In this document: positions 54,583-61,432 of the stretch, one piece after another
How the letters are laid out: each line of letters opens with the position of its first letter
How positions within the stretch are numbered: position 1 is the first letter of the stretch
Assembly (NCBI GenBank): GCA_946479515.1
Contig: CAMLGF010000016.1
Coordinates: forward strand, 5,236 to 69,235
Origin: an uncultured Pseudomonadota bacterium
GTDB lineage: Bacteria > Pseudomonadota > Gammaproteobacteria > Steroidobacterales > Steroidobacteraceae
Direction of reading: 5' to 3'
Length of the DNA: 64,000 bases
The notes under the pieces: model-generated
What the model was told of the DNA's origin: nothing
Database searches by the model: none
What the model saw: only the letters and a program-made list of their open reading frames with translations
Made by a program: the position numbers and the translations under genes

Positions 54583-55620
54583 TCAATGAGCGGTGAAGGA
54601 AAGCCCCGCCACCGCGCCGCGCTCCATCTCCTTCCGGATCGCCTGGCCGAGCTCGAGCACGGCGGAGGCATAAAAAGTGGAACGGTTGTAGCGCGTGATC
54701 ACTTCGAAGTTGGTGAAGCCCGCGAAGAACTTCGAGGCCTTGCCCGGCGTCGGCAGCTCGAAAATCGAACACGGCCCGGCCGGCGGATCCGAGCCCGCGA
54801 ACACCACGCCCTTGCCCTGCACCTCGAGCACGTCGTGGACGCGTTCGAGTCCGCTGATCAGGTCCGGCTCGCTGCCCGGCAGCAGCCGCACCGGCGCTTT
54901 CGCCACCTCACCGGGAACCCAGCCGAATTCCCGGATGTAGTTGGCGACGCTGCCGATGGCGTCGACGGCGCTGCGCCGCAGGTCGATGACGCCGTCGCCG
55001 TCGAAGTCCACCGCGTACCTGCGGTAGCTGGATGGCATAAACTGCGGCAGCCCCACCGCGCCCGCATACGAACCCTTGATGGCCAGTGGATCGATGCCCT
55101 TGTCGCGCGCCAGCAGCAACAGTTCCTTCAACTCGTCGCGGAAGAAATCCTGGCGACGCGTGCCGTCGAAGGCGATCGTGGCCAGCGCATCCACCGCGCG
55201 GAACGAGCCCGTGTTCTGCCCGTAGCGCGTCTCGACCCCCAGGATGCCGAGAATCACTTCCGGCGGCACCCCGAACTCTTCCCGGGCGCGCCGCAGCTCC
55301 ACGGCATGCTCTGTCCAGAAATCCTTGCCCGCCGAAATGAGCTCGGGCGTGAGGAATTTCGCGCGGTAGTTCTCATAGGACCTGGCGGGAGACGGCGCCG
55401 AGCTCGGCGTCGGCGTAATCAGCCGCACCACCGTCGGCTGGTAGCGCACGGCGCCCAGCACGCGTTCGAGATCCGCGGTGTCGATGCCGTGCTCCTCGCT
55501 CATTACCTCGATGAACGAGCGCACGTCGGCGCGTTCGAGATAGCCCGAGGCCTGCGCCGACGCTGCCGCCAGCAGGCAGAGCGCCATCAACGATGCGATC
55601 GTCGTGACTACGGGTTTCAC
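54583..55620 (-). CDS. mltB: Membrane-bound lytic murein transglycosylase B-type
   Basis: A 345-residue periplasmic enzyme that cleaves the glycan strands of peptidoglycan, giving 1,6-anhydro-muropeptides. The catalytic Glu is in LGVETRYGQNTGSFRAVDAL (family GVETxYG), and GSYAGAVGLPQFMPSSYRRYAVDFDGDGVIDL is the second MltB signature. The signal peptide (SLMALCLLAAASAQA) has no lipobox Cys in the usual place, so the enzyme is probably soluble (SltB-like). GTG 55620 is used as start; a TTG 33 bp upstream is possible. It is convergent with the serine-hydrolase gene. Confidence 0.9.
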   Translation of the reverse strand: MKPVVTTIASLMALCLLAAASAQASGYLERADVRSFIEVMSEEHGIDTADLERVLGAVRYQPTVVRLITPTPSSAPSPARSYENYRAKFLTPELISAGKDFWTEHAVELRRAREEFGVPPEVILGILGVETRYGQNTGSFRAVDALATIAFDGTRRQDFFRDELKELLLLARDKGIDPLAIKGSYAGAVGLPQFMPSSYRRYAVDFDGDGVIDLRRSAVDAIGSVANYIREFGWVPGEVAKAPVRLLPGSEPDLISGLERVHDVLEVQGKGVVFAGSDPPAGPCSIFELPTPGKASKFFAGFTNFEVITRYNRSTFYASAVLELGQAIRKEMERGAVAGLSFTAH

Positions 55621-55677
55621 TGAGCGCGCTCGGAATTGCCGCGGGAGACGCAAAGTTAAGCCGCGGCGCGTGGCGAG

Positions 55678-55923
55678 TCAGTGATCGTTTTCACATGATG
55701 CGCGCGCCGGCCGTGAGCCGCGCCCTGCGCGCTTGCCCGCATAGCTCCGCGCGGCCAACTCCAGGCCCACGAAATCCGAGCGCGCGAGGGCCGCAACCGA
55801 AACCTCATCCAGCCCCCATTCCGCTGCGACGGCGCGGGGCCGGCGAACGAAGCGCTCGCGAAAATCCGCGTCGGTGAACAAGCGCGCCAGCAGCGCTTCG
55901 CAGGCCTCATCCTGATCACGCAT
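55678..55923 (-). CDS. Small protein of the MNIO cluster (partner or precursor)
   Basis: An 81-residue protein whose start overlaps the end of the MNIO gene by 8 bp. Residues ALLARLFTDADFRERFVRRPRAVAAEWGLDEVSVAALA resemble the small leader-like or DUF2063-like helical proteins that accompany MNIO enzymes (LFTDxxFRxxFLxxP... pattern). Two cysteines are present, one near the N-terminus (DEACEALL) and one five residues before the end (ASCENDH). It is either a binding partner presenting the substrate or itself a ribosomal-peptide precursor with a modified C-terminal Cys. I cannot choose between them. Confidence 0.65.
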   Translation of the reverse strand: MRDQDEACEALLARLFTDADFRERFVRRPRAVAAEWGLDEVSVAALARSDFVGLELAARSYAGKRAGRGSRPARASCENDH

Positions 55924-56794
55924 GGCGGCGCACCTGCGGTTCCGCGCGCGGCCTGACCGTCCGCAGGGCGGCGCGCGCGGCGTCCAGCTCGGCGAGCAGC
56001 ACGTCCACCGACGGGTAATTGCCATCGCGTTCGAGAATCACATCGAAGGGGCGCGGAGCCTGCGCCGACAGAGCGCCCAGCAATTCGAACACGGCTGCCG
56101 GCGGCGAGTGGACGTGGTCATCGAGCAGCCGCCGCTCGCCGGTGCTCGACTCGATCCACTTGCCCCCGGAGAGGTGCACACATTGCACCGATGCCAGCGG
56201 AAACTCGCTCAGGTCCGCGAGAGCATCGCGACGGGCATTGGCCGCGTTGGCATACAGGTTGTGCAGGTCCAGCAACAACGGTGCGCCGCTGGCGTGCAGG
56301 ATGTGGCGGGTCCACGTGGCCTCGCTGCAGGTGGACGTGGGCGGCTCGAACAGCGTCGCGATGTTTTCGAGCCGGGGCAGCGAGCCGGTGACTGCACGAG
56401 CGCGCTCGAGATTGCGGACGCATTGCTCCACGGTGCGCGCCGTGCGCGGTGGCATGGCGAGGTGCCCGATCTCGATGCCCCCTGCGCGCACGAAGGCCAG
56501 GTGCTCGGACCAGCACTCCGGACGTACGTGCTCGATGAGCCGCGCCATGCTGTCGAGGCGGCGTTCATCGACGGGCGAAGCCGAGGCGAGACCCATGCCC
56601 ACGCCGTGCAGGTGCACGGGCACTTCCCGCGCGAGGCCACGCAGCGCGTCCCGCTCGCGGCGGGACGCATGAAAGTAGTTGTCAGCGATCACTTCGACGA
56701 GGTCAATGCGGTCGAGATGCAGGAGAATCGCGGCCGCCAGCTCTGGTCGCCAGCCCATGCCGACGCGCGAGCTGCCCTCAGCTGCCACAACCAC
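55916..56794 (-). CDS. MNIO (DUF692) multinuclear non-haem iron oxidase
   Basis: A 292-residue TIM-barrel enzyme of the MbnB/TglH/DUF692 group. Likely metal ligands appear in family order: HLHGVGMGL (His 61, His 63), SEHLAF (Glu 97, His 98), RLENI (Glu 143), LLLDLHNLYANA (Asp 176, His 178, Asn 179), HLSGG (His 207), DDHVH (Asp 226, His 227) and ILERDGNYP (Glu 255). Known members oxidise cysteines in peptides to thio-oxazoles, oxazolone/thioamide or excise the beta-carbon. The start is GTG 56794, 5 nt after AGGAGG; this site lies inside the Cys/Gly-tail codons of the upstream gene. Confidence 0.9.
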   Translation of the reverse strand: MVVAAEGSSRVGMGWRPELAAAILLHLDRIDLVEVIADNYFHASRRERDALRGLAREVPVHLHGVGMGLASASPVDERRLDSMARLIEHVRPECWSEHLAFVRAGGIEIGHLAMPPRTARTVEQCVRNLERARAVTGSLPRLENIATLFEPPTSTCSEATWTRHILHASGAPLLLDLHNLYANAANARRDALADLSEFPLASVQCVHLSGGKWIESSTGERRLLDDHVHSPPAAVFELLGALSAQAPRPFDVILERDGNYPSVDVLLAELDAARAALRTVRPRAEPQVRRHA

Positions 56795-57656
56795 CGCAAC
56801 CTCCTCCGCAGCCGCCGCCGCCGCAGCTCGAACCGCAGGCCGACGAGCAGGCCAGGTTTTCTCTCAATTTCTGTTTGCTGATCCTGGCGGCAGAGGGATA
56901 GACCACACGCGGCAGCGCCGCGAGCCCAAAGGTCGCTGCCACCAGCACGGCCTCATTGGTGGCGCCGGTGGCGGACATTCTGCCCACGCGGTCCTTCAGG
57001 CGTGCAAACAAGGTCTGCTGATCGTGCAATGCCCGCCGGCCCTCGCTCGTGCGAGGCAAGCGATAAATGGCGTACGCGGCCGCCAACGCGGCGAGCGTGA
57101 GCATGACCAGGAACGCGATGTTCGTGTGTCCCCGCTGCACGGCAATGACGATCTTCGTGACGGACAGCGCCGCCAGCGAGCCCGCGATCAACACAAGCGC
57201 CGGACGGCGCCGGACATACTCGGCATCGTCGGCCATCAGGCCCTCGGTACGCAGAGGAGCGGTGTATTCCTCGGCAGCCAATCTGAGCAGTGGGTCCTGC
57301 AGCAGGTCCTTCATGGTGAGCCGCGCGGAGCACTGCCTCAGTAGCGTCACTTCGAGCGGATGGGTCACGGCCTCAGGCGACGTGAGTCCGGTGGTGATGA
57401 AGTACTCGCCGACCCGGGTCAGCAGTTTGCGCTCGTGGAGCGCGAACAACAGGGTATGCAGCAGCTCGCGCTGCCCGCCACGCAAGTAGGAGACCAGGTA
57501 GGGGTCGCGAAGAAGGCGCCGCGCCATTGGCGATGCATCCCGCTGCGGACCCTGCAAGATGCCCAGAACGACCAGCAGGAGCAGCAGCAATGCCGCCAGA
57601 CTCGCGATTAGATAGAGCACCAGGAAGGCTGGGCCAGGCAGGTCGAAAGGATTCAT
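56778..57656 (-). CDS. TIGR04222-like membrane protein with six-Cys Gly/Cys tail
   Basis: A 292-residue inner-membrane protein. Hydrophobic helices lie at about residues 9-32 (FLVLYLIASLAALLLLLLVV) and in two segments near 155-200. The soluble loop between them (MARRLLRDPYLVSYLRGGQRELLHTLLFALHERKLL) is the core of the TIGR04222 domain, a family of unknown function usually followed by low-complexity sequence. The last 23 residues have the spacing C-x3-C-x3-C-x4-C-x3-C-x2-C in Gly/Ser. Cysteine-rich tails beside an MNIO enzyme suggest these are the oxidation targets. The stop overlaps the enzyme gene by 17 bp. ATG 57656 was preferred over GTG 57665. Confidence 0.85.
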   Translation of the reverse strand: MNPFDLPGPAFLVLYLIASLAALLLLLLVVLGILQGPQRDASPMARRLLRDPYLVSYLRGGQRELLHTLLFALHERKLLTRVGEYFITTGLTSPEAVTHPLEVTLLRQCSARLTMKDLLQDPLLRLAAEEYTAPLRTEGLMADDAEYVRRRPALVLIAGSLAALSVTKIVIAVQRGHTNIAFLVMLTLAALAAAYAIYRLPRTSEGRRALHDQQTLFARLKDRVGRMSATGATNEAVLVAATFGLAALPRVVYPSAARISKQKLRENLACSSACGSSCGGGGCGGGCGGCGS

Positions 57657-57666
57657 CGCAGCCACC

Positions 57667-58398
57667 CTACTTCGTCGCCCGCGGCGCGATGGCGCGCGCG
57701 AAGTCGATGAGCTGCGCGAGCAGCCGCAACGAATCGGCGGTGACGGGCTGGCCCTGGTCGCGAATCTGCTGGCTGCGCTCGATCAATGCCACCGCACCGT
57801 GGTGCGACGCCAGCTCCAGCAGCGCGTCTTTCGGTGTGGTCGCCGGCTGACCTGCCAGCTCTCGCAGCGCCACCGCCGACGCGCGCAGCGGACCCACGGC
57901 CTCGGCGAGAACACGCGTGCGGGCATGATCGTTGTGCAGCAGCAGCGACTGCCGCAGGCGCAGCGAGAGGTTGAGCAGCACTTGCGCGACGCGGCGACTC
58001 AGCGCCTCCTTGCTGATGGAAAGCGAAGCAAACGGGTCCGCGCCATGCAGCACACGCCGGCGGTGCAGGATGTCGAAGTACTTGACCGCGAAGGCTTCCG
58101 TCGCCGCCAGAAGCTCGTCTTCGAGCAGCACCAGGGGCTTGAGGTCGATGGCCGCCGCCAGCGCCTGTGCGCGCGCGCGCCAGTCTTCGACCTGCGCCAG
58201 ATCGATGTGCGTGAACACCATGAGCAAGTTCACGTCCGAGGTCGCCCGCAAGCGCCCTTCCGCGGCGGAGCCGAACAACACGATGGACTTGAGTGAGGCG
58301 CCGAAGGCGTCTATCGACAGCTGCGCGAACTCCGCCAGCGCAGCGGCGATGTCGGCCGGAAGATCGCTTGCCCAGAGTTCCCGACGCGTCGCAGCCAT
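57667..58398 (-). CDS. Nucleotidyltransferase-fold protein with altered active site
   Basis: A 243-residue protein. The N-terminal polymerase-beta-like fold shows IVLFGSAAEGRLRATSDVNLLMVF (residues about 39-62). The GS motif is normal, but the paired catalytic acids (SDxD) read SDVN, so one Asp is Asn, and activity may be reduced or lost. The C-terminal half is helical (LSRRVAQVLLNLSLRLRQSLLL), like substrate-binding HEPN-type helices. It ends 10 bp before the TIGR04222 start and is the first gene of the MNIO cluster, which suggests a regulatory or modifying part. Confidence 0.82.
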   Translation of the reverse strand: MAATRRELWASDLPADIAAALAEFAQLSIDAFGASLKSIVLFGSAAEGRLRATSDVNLLMVFTHIDLAQVEDWRARAQALAAAIDLKPLVLLEDELLAATEAFAVKYFDILHRRRVLHGADPFASLSISKEALSRRVAQVLLNLSLRLRQSLLLHNDHARTRVLAEAVGPLRASAVALRELAGQPATTPKDALLELASHHGAVALIERSQQIRDQGQPVTADSLRLLAQLIDFARAIAPRATK

Positions 58399-58461: not shown

Positions 58462-59247
58462 CTATTCACCGTAGCGCGCCACGTGCCGCTGGTACGCCAG
58501 CAGATGTCGCAAGGCCTCGCGCGGCCGGTTGGCCTTCTCATGCAGGCGCGCCAGGTTGAAATGCGCGTCGCAGAGCAGCGGGTCCTGCGCCAGCGCGTCG
58601 CGATAGGCCGCCATGGCCTCCTCTTCGCGCTGCAGGTCCTCGAGCAGGATGGCGAGGTTGAACGACAGCAATGCACTCGAAGACTTGGCCTGTCGATACA
58701 GGCGCTCCGCGGCCTGCAGCTGCCCATCGAGATGCAGCAGGCGGCCGAGATTGATGCGCGCTTCCAGGTGATCTTCCTGAGCGTTGAGCGCCGCGAGATA
58801 AGCCGCGCGCGCGGCGGCCACGTCGGTGTCCTCGAGCTCGTGGCCACGCTGGTAGTGCTCGTTCGCGAGCGCCGCCGCCGGCGGTTCCCGCTCCTGCCGG
58901 AGCGCCGCCACCTGCCCGGCCGCGGGCTTCGGCTGCAGCGGCAATGCGTATTGTCCCGAGGCCTCCCATTCGCTCGCGCCCTCGCGCACGGCGAGATCCC
59001 TGCCGGTCGCGGCCAGCGTCACGGAAATGCGTCCCTCCGGCAGCGCGCGCCGGATCTGCTCCAGCGCGGCCAGTATCCGGGCCGGGGATATCTTCGCCGC
59101 CTTGAGCGCGCCCGCGACGCGCAGCACCAGCAGGTCCTGAAACGAGTACCGGCCCGTGCCGATGAATCCGGCCTGGCTCAGCTTCCTGATGAGCGCTGGT
59201 GGGAGCCCGAACAGTCTGCGCAAATCTGCCGGCGAGTACTCCTGCAT
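58462..59247 (-). CDS. MerR-type HTH protein with TPR domain
   Basis: A 261-residue fusion. The first 75 residues (SPADLRRLFGLPPALIRKLSQAGFIGTGRYSFQDLLVLRVAGAL) are a MerR winged helix, and residues about 140-255 are TPR repeats (AARAAYLAALNAQEDHLEARINLGRLLHLDG, then AMAAYRDALAQDPLLCDAHFNLARLHEKANRPREAL). TPRs replace the usual effector domain, so the regulator probably senses a protein or peptide. It starts 6 bp after the stop of Ku on the same strand and is likely co-transcribed with it. A short GAGGTG site precedes the ATG. Confidence 0.85.
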   Translation of the reverse strand: MQEYSPADLRRLFGLPPALIRKLSQAGFIGTGRYSFQDLLVLRVAGALKAAKISPARILAALEQIRRALPEGRISVTLAATGRDLAVREGASEWEASGQYALPLQPKPAAGQVAALRQEREPPAAALANEHYQRGHELEDTDVAAARAAYLAALNAQEDHLEARINLGRLLHLDGQLQAAERLYRQAKSSSALLSFNLAILLEDLQREEEAMAAYRDALAQDPLLCDAHFNLARLHEKANRPREALRHLLAYQRHVARYGE

Positions 59248-59253
59248 TTCACC

Positions 59254-60132
59254 TCAACGCCGCGAGGATCGTCGCGCCGAGGCAGCTGCTCCCGGCGCGG
59301 GCGCCTTCTTGGGCGCCTTGCGCTCTTTCGCCCCGGCCCTGCCGCCGCGGGTATTCAAGCTCGCCTTCAGGATTTCCATGAGATCGACCACGTTGCTGCC
59401 GCGCTCGGTGGCAACCGGCGGCTCCGCGAAGGTGACTTCCTTGCCCTCGACCTTGCGCTGGATCGCGGCCTCGACCCGCGCGCGATGCTCGTCCACGTAC
59501 TCGTTCGGATCGAAACGCCTGGCCGCGAGCTGCTCGATGAGCTGATTGGCGAGCTTCAGCTCCGCATCCGACACCGGCGCCGCCTCCACGCCCAGGTCCT
59601 TGATCGAACGCACCTCCGCCTTGAAGTGCAGCTGATGCATGGCGAGGCCGTCGTCCATGGGGCGCAGGATGACGATGTGCTCCTTGCCGCGGGAAATCCA
59701 TCTGCCTACCGCGCATTGCTTCGCCTTGTCGAGCGCGGTGGCGAGCAGCGAGTAGGGTTTCGCGCCGCCCTTGTCGGGCGCCAGGTAGTAAGTGCCGTCG
59801 AAGTACACCGGGTCCACCGACTCCAGCGGCACGAACTGCGTGATATCGATGGTGTGGGTCGTCGTGTCCTCGAGCGCCTTCAGCTCCTCGGGCGAGAACA
59901 TCACGTACTGGCCCTTGGCGAACTCGTAGCCCTTGGTCATCTCGGCGCGCTCCACCAGCTTGCCGTCGTTCACCGCGACGTACTGCTGCTTGACGCGCGA
60001 ACCGTCCTTCTGCCGCAGCAGATTGAACGAGAGGCGCTCGCTGGAGATCGTGGCCGAATAGAGCTTGACCGGGATCGCCACCAGGCCGAAGGAGATGGTG
60101 AGCGAGGCGATGGAGCGGGCATTGCTGGGCAT
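59254..60132 (-). CDS. ku: Ku protein of bacterial non-homologous end joining
   Basis: A 292-residue DNA-end-binding protein. The ring core is recognised by SIASLTISFGLVAIPVKLYSAT at the start, FNLLRQKDGSRVKQQYVAVNDGKLVERAEMTKGYEFAKGQYVMFSPEEL and RFDPNEYVDEHRARVEAAIQRKVEG at the end of the core. A Lys/Arg/Ala-rich tail (KERKAPKKAPAPGAAASA) provides extra DNA binding. Ku recruits LigD to double-strand breaks; no ligD is in the window. ATG 60132 was chosen because the conserved core begins directly after it. Confidence 0.93.
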   Translation of the reverse strand: MPSNARSIASLTISFGLVAIPVKLYSATISSERLSFNLLRQKDGSRVKQQYVAVNDGKLVERAEMTKGYEFAKGQYVMFSPEELKALEDTTTHTIDITQFVPLESVDPVYFDGTYYLAPDKGGAKPYSLLATALDKAKQCAVGRWISRGKEHIVILRPMDDGLAMHQLHFKAEVRSIKDLGVEAAPVSDAELKLANQLIEQLAARRFDPNEYVDEHRARVEAAIQRKVEGKEVTFAEPPVATERGSNVVDLMEILKASLNTRGGRAGAKERKAPKKAPAPGAAASARRSSRR

Positions 60133-60271
60133 GGAGCACAGATATGCCATCGCCGCGCGTGCATCAACCGGCCCGCGCAGCAAGCGCTGCAGGCCAAGCG
60201 GTGGAAAAGAACGGGTTCCTATCCGGTTTGTCAGACGGTGCCGATGAACATCCGGCCGGCACCGCTGAAAA

Positions 60272-61432
60272 TCAGTTCGCCGAGACGCCGGTCGGGGGCC
60301 GCGGTGTGGGACCGGCAGCCGCGGCGCCGACCTTGGCCGCGACATAGTCGCCTAGCTTCTTTCCGCTCGCGCAGAAGCCGCGGGTCACACCCGCGCCCGA
60401 ACACATTTCCTGCGTCCAGCGGGCATCGTTCAGGAAGGTGTAGTTGAGCTGCAGATTGGCGCCCGCGGTGCGGTTCAACGACCCCTTGAACGCCTCCATC
60501 TTCTTGTCGGAATCGAAACGCGTGGCGGTGGTCGTTCCCGAACAGTTGCGCGTGAGGCCCCACTCCATGCTGTTGCCCTTGGAGACGCTGTCCTGGATCG
60601 TCACGCTGTGCGAACCGTTGCCGTCGCTCGAGAAGCGGCCGTAGTCGCCACTGGCGGTGATCACGGACTGGCTGATGGTGCCGACGTTCGAGTGGCTCTG
60701 GTGAGTGTTGATCACCTGGCCGCCGATGTTCTCCGAAGAGCTGTTCGCTTCAGAGATCGCATCGACGAGGATCGCGCCCTTGATGCTGAAGCCCTCGGTG
60801 TCGTACATGTTGTAAGCCGCATGCGGCTCGAACTCGGTGCAGCTGGAACTGCCCTGCCCCCAACCACCGTCAGGCCGGAAGATCACGTTCTCCATCACGA
60901 CGTTCGACACCTGATAAGCGAGCGCGAGATAGCGGCCGCCGCGGCCGTAGAACGCCGAGTCGTAGATCTTGGTGTTCGCACCGATCAGCGCATTCACCGT
61001 GTTGCCGCAGGACGGCCCACCAACGAACGACATGCGGCGATACGTGTTCCCCGAGCCGAGGGTCTTCTGGTCACTCGACTTGACGATGATGCCGCGCATC
61101 TCGAAGCCGCCGTTGCCGGGATTGAAACCACCCGTGAAGGTCACTTTTCCATCGTTCTCCGCGGCGACGATCACGCCGCCTTTGATCGAGCCGACGGAAC
61201 CCGAGTACGTGCCATCGGCGATCAGCAAGGTGTCGCCGGAAGATAGAGAGGACATGCAGCCCGACACGCTCGAGCAACTGCCCGGCATGCGCACCGTCGC
61301 GGCCTCGGCCGTTCGGAAAGGAATTGCGCTCACCACGGCGGCGCCGATGGCAAATGGCAACCACCAGAGCTGGCGGCGCGCGGCCGCGTGGGTGTGAGAT
61401 CCGAGTTCAGCGTCGACGCGAAAACCAGCCAT
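60272..61432 (-). CDS. Exported right-handed beta-helix protein
   Basis: A 386-residue secreted protein. A signal peptide (about residues 21-45, WWLPFAIGAAVVSAIPF) is followed by GDTLLIADGTYSGSVGSIKGGVIVAAENDGKVTF, the usual opening of parallel beta-helix proteins, and many short repeats (IIVKSSDQKTLGSGNTYRRMSFVGG, SFVGG, NVVMENVIFRP, SIKGAILVDAIS). Ser, Asn and Thr are abundant and codon use is less GC-rich than in neighbours. The fold is shared by pectate lyases, alginate lyases and adhesins; I see no complete lyase active site. The start is ATG 61432, with GAGGT 7 nt upstream. Confidence 0.8.
   Translation of the reverse strand: MAGFRVDAELGSHTHAAARRQLWWLPFAIGAAVVSAIPFRTAEAATVRMPGSCSSVSGCMSSLSSGDTLLIADGTYSGSVGSIKGGVIVAAENDGKVTFTGGFNPGNGGFEMRGIIVKSSDQKTLGSGNTYRRMSFVGGPSCGNTVNALIGANTKIYDSAFYGRGGRYLALAYQVSNVVMENVIFRPDGGWGQGSSSCTEFEPHAAYNMYDTEGFSIKGAILVDAISEANSSSENIGGQVINTHQSHSNVGTISQSVITASGDYGRFSSDGNGSHSVTIQDSVSKGNSMEWGLTRNCSGTTTATRFDSDKKMEAFKGSLNRTAGANLQLNYTFLNDARWTQEMCSGAGVTRGFCASGKKLGDYVAAKVGAAAAGPTPRPPTGVSAN

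Follow-up and report, generated by a model that had tools for sequence, protein, structure and literature searches.

A membrane protein with a Gly/Cys tail is encoded beside either an MNIO or a radical SAM enzyme, candidate maturases of the tail

We examined a four-gene cassette in a 64,000-nucleotide stretch of DNA (here, the window) from an uncultured Steroidobacteraceae bacterium. All four genes lie on the minus strand, and both their coordinates and their family profiles confirm a preliminary description, made from the sequence alone, of four leftward genes that overlap or nearly touch. In order, they encode a nucleotidyltransferase-like (NT) protein with an NT fold (57667-58398, 243 amino acids), a TIGR04222 membrane protein (56778-57656; 292 amino acids from an ATG start, or 295 from a GTG at 57665), a DUF692 protein of the MNIO enzyme family (55916-56794, 292 amino acids, GTG start), and an all-helical protein of 81 amino acids (55678-55923) that is a probable partner domain of the MNIO. 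The MNIO gene shares 17 bases with the TIGR04222 gene and 8 bases with the 81-aa gene. The membrane protein ends in the 24-residue Gly/Ser/Cys tail ACSSACGSSCGGGGCGGGCGGCGS, the proposed modified core, which is encoded at 56781-56852 on the same strand, directly before the stop codon at 56778-56780; the six cysteines that the preliminary description had placed in this Gly/Ser-rich C terminus are all there. Because the genes abut or overlap, there is no space between the four for another peptide gene, though one could lie elsewhere.

The TIGR04222 protein scores 94.5 bits against its NCBIfam model (cut-off 43), and the low-complexity tail lies after the profile match. The MNIO scores 209.8 bits against PF05114 (gathering score 25). 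The closest named families of the enzyme are BufB (176.2 bits, cut-off 310) and HvfB (122.4 bits, cut-off 360), both below cut-off. The enzyme aligns with PDB entries 3bww and 8hci, both DUF692 proteins, and by eye its motifs HLHG, SEHLAF, LENI, LDLHN, VHLSGG, and LERDGNYP match like motifs of 3bww; its LDDH motif has no clear placement in the 3bww alignment. The iron ligands are presumably among these conserved polar motifs.

We scored 7994 candidates and found at least 2149 TIGR04222 homologues, with 120 matches listed. In 36 aligned homologues picked from those 120, residues G286, C287, G288, G289, C290, and G291 (the ending GCGGCG) are invariant in all 36, and in a larger alignment of 88 homologues C287 is invariant and C290 is at least 90% conserved. 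The cysteine count in the last 50 residues ranges from 3 to 8 (120 homologues among the matches listed). The preliminary description had tied its reading of the tail to conserved cysteine number and spacing; the terminal CGGCG spacing is conserved, but the number is variable. Gly/Cys tails also occur in AT-rich loci with 34 to 44% GC (L056, L039, L038, and L073 to L075). Given that these tails are kept in AT-rich loci and that GCGGCG is invariant in 36 of 36 homologues, the window tail is not a by-product of GC-rich DNA. Among members with an MNIO, 168 of 197 tail cysteines have Gly next. The CGGCG terminus alone is no mark of an MNIO, because it is kept in members without an MNIO nearby or in the genome.

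The first 20 loci surveyed were fetched by the tail pattern GGGCGGCG. Profile searches for TIGR04222 covered the class of locus L015 (369 genomes, 6 over the cut-off), its order (250 genomes, 8), and five phyla: those of the acidobacterial L004 (396 genomes, 19), the myxobacterial L020 (282, 6), the Thermodesulfovibrio metagenome-assembled genome (MAG) L002 (148, 8), L014 (194, 4), and L006 (45, 2). We take the phylum of L002 to be Nitrospirota and use that name here. The genome sets overlap: G008 was counted twice, and some genomes were already among the 20 pattern-chosen loci.

With the window included, the survey comprises 66 TIGR04222 genes in 64 loci. The preliminary description had proposed checking whether TIGR04222 and DUF692 genes co-occur as neighbors; an MNIO gene lies within 2 kb of 32 of the 66, and the other 34 have a radical SAM/SPASM gene (19) or neither enzyme (15) in that range. 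No TIGR04222 gene has both. Among the 44 window-like members, which score at least 90 bits against a profile of the window type, 30 have an MNIO and 14 a radical SAM enzyme, with none having both and none having neither. When the 20 pattern-chosen loci and the window are removed, the counts are 19 with MNIO, 11 with radical SAM, 0 with both, and 14 with neither; for the window-like members of this reduced set they are 18, 6, 0, and 0. No MNIO was detected anywhere in 17 of the 18 radical SAM genomes, and the remaining one, G292, has an MNIO elsewhere. In this sample, MNIO and radical SAM enzymes are mutually exclusive beside TIGR04222.

The exchange between the two enzymes is also repeated. 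A maximum-likelihood tree of 49 TIGR04222 genes contains 7 exchanges between MNIO and radical SAM, at least 5 of them forced by well-supported branches. Bootstrapping gave 6 to 7 exchanges (5%-95% range), and a single change sufficed in 0% of 200 trees; the window itself is on a long branch whose placement lacks good support. Clustering of gene neighbors recovered two families, NT in 19 loci and radical SAM in 9, none of these 9 having an MNIO, and a profile built from 8 of the clustered radical SAM proteins located the enzyme near TIGR04222 in L008, L016, and L069 to L075. The Nitrospirota set was fetched after the idea of an exchange had been formed: all seven new loci have a radical SAM gene, with no MNIO in the genome, which is the nearest thing in this work to a prediction borne out.

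Seven of the 18 radical SAM loci (L008, L013, L014, L043, L069, L070, and L072) pass the SbtM (TIGR04082) cut-off of 350 bits, with scores of 474 to 538 bits. These SbtM-type enzymes are 54 to 88% identical among themselves, and a CxxxCxxC motif plus six further cysteines are kept in all 18 radical SAM proteins. SbtM above cut-off is found in 13 of the 148 Nitrospirota genomes; 10 of those 13 matches begin at profile positions 1 to 40, and the N-terminal ~195 positions are missing from just three, which are those linked to TIGR04222. Tails can match closely across the two enzymes, as in the window (CGSSCGGGGCGGGCGGCGS, MNIO) and L069 (CSSCSSCGGGGCGGGCGGCGS, radical SAM), and tail cysteine number does not differ significantly between MNIO and radical SAM members (Mann-Whitney p 0.09). 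By title, the radical SAM loci include Thermodesulfovibrio, groundwater, and Victivallales sources, as well as two that we take from their names to be termite-gut isolates. Selenocysteine in the tail, which would be expected for a classic SbtA/SbtM pair, was considered and rejected: the stop codons of the 19 radical SAM-group genes are mixed (5 TGA, 8 TAG, 6 TAA), with no Gly/Cys-like reading beyond them.

At E up to 0.01, 11 homologues of the 81-aa protein were found, one near-identical; the core is invariant, whereas the tail shows no conservation. Its domain is present in 22 of 32 MNIO loci (E up to 1e-6), in 0 of 18 radical SAM loci, and in 0 of 14 loci with neither enzyme (Fisher p 8e-7 for MNIO versus radical SAM loci); three more loci (L044, L050, and L056) have weaker matches. 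In L001 and L058 the domain is fused to the C terminus of the MNIO, in at least 8 MNIO loci it is a separate gene for 67 to 97 amino acids, and it is homologous to the N-terminal domain of 159- to 211-aa proteins that come after the MNIO, the longer versions adding a second region. Because the domain is found only with MNIO and is sometimes fused to it, the 81-aa protein, to which the preliminary description gave no role, is probably an MNIO partner domain rather than a substrate. Its position, encoded directly after the MNIO with homologues placed alike elsewhere, is that of a PME-type 2 partner. It is too short for a RiPP (ribosomally synthesized and post-translationally modified peptide) recognition element (RRE), and it has no match to DUF2063 (PME-type 1) at E up to 1. 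Its predicted model is all-helical (pLDDT 70), and a profile of six longer relatives recovered neither NGO1945 nor TglI from PDB sequences.

The NT protein reaches no family cut-off: MntA antitoxin is best at 26.4 bits (cut-off 60), followed by Polbeta at 20.6 bits (cut-off 26.9), and no relative was found among PDB sequences at E up to 0.1. The usual nucleotidyltransferase motif is SDxD. In the window motif GSAAEGRLRATSDVN the corresponding residues are SDVN, with Asn in place of the second catalytic Asp, so the Asp pair of an active, MntA-like nucleotidyltransferase is incomplete. Among 34 NT members, 30 have SDxN and two have SDVD (L060 and L061); one has another motif (L020) and one is not shown (L068). 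This pattern suggests a pseudo-nucleotidyltransferase or altered metal use. The motif of the family as a whole reads GSAAEGxLRxTSDxN. NT relatives occur in 19 of 32 MNIO loci, 13 of 18 radical SAM loci, and 1 of 14 loci with neither, or 32 of 50 loci with an enzyme versus 1 of 14 without (Fisher p 2e-4).

The idea that an MNIO acts on the tail of a TIGR04222 protein is not new, because Antoine et al. 2025 (PMC12452194) already proposed subsets of TIGR04222 tails as MNIO substrates. They reported that, of more than 1,000 Cys proteins without a signal peptide encoded ahead of MNIO genes, 40% are TIGR04222 proteins, and that one third of TIGR04222 genomes lack an MNIO, and they left the type of tail modification and the role of TIGR04222 open. 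The clusters they describe resemble ours in membrane protein family, enzyme family, the proposal of the tail as substrate, and partners of PME-type 2. They differ in that many TIGR04222-MNIO clusters appeared there to lack partner genes, whereas the partner domain is present here in 22 of 32 MNIO loci; the same paper groups very small proteins after the MNIO, without recognizable relatives, as adjamnio-V. The main text of PMC12452194 draws no link between TIGR04222 and radical SAM enzymes, the term appearing twice, both times in the reference list. We found no description of the TIGR04222-radical SAM exchange in the open-access literature searched.

Two known systems bear on the chemistry. Bufferins and the SbtMa peptide are two RiPPs reported to carry thiooxazoles (PMC12538549), and an MNIO product has been given as 5-thiooxazole, with a loss of 4 Da (PMC12668002). 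The cassette is like those of bufferins and captophorins (PMC12668002) in that its MNIO is closest to BufB and HvfB and its tail cysteines are mostly followed by Gly; it differs in that the putative precursor is a membrane protein without a Sec signal peptide and the partner is an 81-aa helical protein, not a DUF2063-RRE protein. The SbtM thio(seleno)oxazole RiPP system (Lewis et al. 2021, via PMC12538549) is like the exchanged loci in that a radical SAM/SPASM enzyme takes the place of the MNIO, with 7 of 18 over the SbtM cut-off. However, the TIGR04222-linked enzymes lack about the first 195 profile positions, there is no sign of selenocysteine read-through, and the window itself carries an MNIO, not an SbtM-like enzyme.

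Given the wide gene linkage and the exchange pattern, the tail of the TIGR04222 protein is probably a substrate of the adjoining MNIO, as the preliminary description had supposed, although the CGGCG terminus is also kept without an MNIO. On balance, we favor a reading, somewhat better than even in our judgment and based on sequence comparison, in which the cassette is a maturation system for a protein-borne, membrane-anchored Cys tail, on which two unrelated enzymes build the same heterocycle from cysteine. In such a system, the TIGR04222 protein would be translated and its transmembrane part inserted, and the MNIO would oxidize several tail cysteines with the 81-aa partner presenting the substrate. 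Each Cys, together with the carbonyl of the preceding residue, would most likely become a 5-thiooxazole, with a loss of 4 Da per Cys, as with bufferin-type MNIOs; we infer this product because the MNIO is kin to BufB (below its cut-off) and because SbtM-type enzymes replace it. By analogy with bufferins, the matured tail may bind a soft metal, such as copper, at the membrane. Because NT accompanies both enzymes, it would serve the TIGR04222 protein itself. In other lineages, the MNIO and its partner would give way to a radical SAM/SPASM enzyme that belongs to the SbtM thio(seleno)oxazole family or is close to it, so that the tail can stay unchanged, and oxygen supply may drive the exchange. 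The fullest version of this proposal is one that we hold tentatively, a little short of even: a single membrane-borne Gly/Cys tail converted to a string of 5-thiooxazoles by an oxygen-using MNIO with its partner or by an oxygen-independent SbtM-like enzyme, swapped at least 5 times, presumably with oxygen supply, while substrate and NT helper are kept, the product being a membrane-tethered metallophore. If true, chemistry of the ribosomal-peptide type would include a swap between an aerobic and an anaerobic enzyme, and two unrelated iron enzymes would have converged on one modification of a membrane protein. The exchange yields the prediction of a thiooxazole, at -4 Da per Cys and ~302-305 nm, and makes the SbtM-type enzyme a candidate maturase for TIGR04222 clusters without an MNIO; the gene for the small partner may often have escaped notice.

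One alternative is that both enzymes act on the tail with different products, for example a thiooxazole versus a thioether or an epimerized residue, so that the swap preserves merely a modified tail. SPASM enzymes make many products, and six of the 11 radical SAM proteins below the SbtM cut-off match several SPASM families about equally. The seven above the cut-off, the lack of a significant difference in cysteine number between the two groups, and their shared motifs speak against this explanation, and we regard it as unlikely. Slightly less likely still is that the Gly/Cys tail stays unmodified, in a structural or metal-binding role, and that the MNIO and its partner modify another peptide or act elsewhere. 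Such a tail would fit the presence of TIGR04222 in genomes without an MNIO, both here and in PMC12452194, and the CGGCG-type termini of 11 of the 15 genes with no enzyme nearby. Some other reason would then be needed for two families of peptide-modifying enzymes to replace each other next to one tail, and the abutting genes leave no gap between them for another peptide gene; nor is the 81-aa protein a likely substrate, its late Cys being missing from homologues P0122-P0131. Tail cysteines are also more numerous with an enzyme nearby than without (51 versus 14 genes, p 1e-4), but the members without an enzyme also form a more divergent subfamily. That the 81-aa protein is itself a RiPP precursor, with a helical part like NHLP/Os17 leaders, finds an echo in sub-threshold scores for Os17 (31.7 bits, cut-off 40) and TIGR04509 (25.6 bits, cut-off 34). 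We rejected this as very improbable: the 10 homologues P0122-P0131 have no conserved residues past the helical part and no Cys core, L001 and L058 carry the domain as an MNIO fusion, and the longer proteins after MNIO have a homologue of it at their N terminus.

Other observations weigh against the proposal of one tail matured alike by two enzymes. The sample is from phyla other than Actinomycetota, the main TIGR04222 hosts according to PMC12452194, and the 90-bit threshold that defines the 44 window-like members was picked after the data were seen, its lowest member (L041) scoring 90.0. Many of the genomes are MAGs, so a missing MNIO is no proof of absence. Fifteen genes have neither enzyme nearby, one of them (L018) cut by a contig end; they include three new loci from the phylum of L014 (L076 to L078), the 11 with CGGCG-type termini, and tails with up to 7 cysteines, and 9 of the 14 genomes concerned have an MNIO elsewhere. 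The 11 radical SAM proteins below the SbtM cut-off share 22 to 31% identity with the SbtM-type proteins and could thus make another product, and even in the seven SbtM-type proteins the matches begin at positions 195 to 198 of 516. Of the 19 gene pairs, 4 have their two genes on opposite strands and 2 have the radical SAM gene upstream, and in L008 a channel gene lies between the TIGR04222 and radical SAM genes. Finally, the structures assigned to thiooxazole-class products have been contested and revised (PMC12538549, PMC12668002).

The TIGR04222 protein has about three transmembrane helices, with a soluble domain between helices 1 and 2 and further helices after the third. In an AlphaFold2 model (pLDDT 87.5) the tail is disordered, and a Foldseek search with the TIGR04222 domain found 0 matches in the PDB at E up to 0.001. 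There is a weak sequence link to DUF2207_C (L069 20.2 bits, L073 21.5 bits, both below the cut-off of 33), and several homologues carry a precomputed PF20990 annotation. The N terminus of the window protein, MNPFDLPGP, leads straight into the first helix and is no bufferin-type Sec signal peptide. By eye, L073 and L075 have an N-terminal signal sequence ahead of an outer domain, with a sub-threshold match in L073 to the DUF2207 N-terminal model (15.7 bits, cut-off 24.4), and L037, L063, and L065 have one additional early helix. Because of these signal sequences and extra helices, the usual first helix is most likely N-out, which would put the soluble domain on the cytosolic side. This differs from PMC12452194, which describes a periplasmic tail and TIGR04222 proteins with "large periplasmic domain(s)". 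The side on which the tail lies hinges on a borderline fourth hydrophobic segment with a mean hydropathy of 1.27 (A2), modeled by AlphaFold2 as ~15 kinked helical residues. Its median peak hydropathy is 1.65 in members with MNIO versus 1.86 in those with radical SAM, and 20 of 32 and 10 of 17 members, respectively, peak at 1.6 or higher.

The divergent TIGR04222 proteins (L036, L037, L062 to L065, and L076 to L078) mostly have ..CGGCGGGGD-like tails and neither enzyme nearby, and several have a VDxxWHxHL-like stretch in the N-terminal part or an adjoining gene; this group may be served by a further maturase or by none. In Nitrospirota, short SbtM-like radical SAM genes (143 to 160 bits) are present at G1439:C6, G1427:C39, and G1455:C46, in genomes with no TIGR04222 match among those listed. 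The window cassette is flanked by genes for an MltB-type murein transglycosylase (54583-55653) and a TPR protein (58462-59247), neither with any sign of cassette membership. Just upstream of the cassette, 59254-60345 apparently encodes a Ku-like (non-homologous end joining) protein. MNIO and radical SAM loci alike can have a TrkA-N/ion-channel (RCK-type) gene close to TIGR04222 (L004, L005, L008, L011, and L047; also L073:181-1686); a Pfam check covered L008, L011, and L073, and the channel domain is present in L008 and L073.

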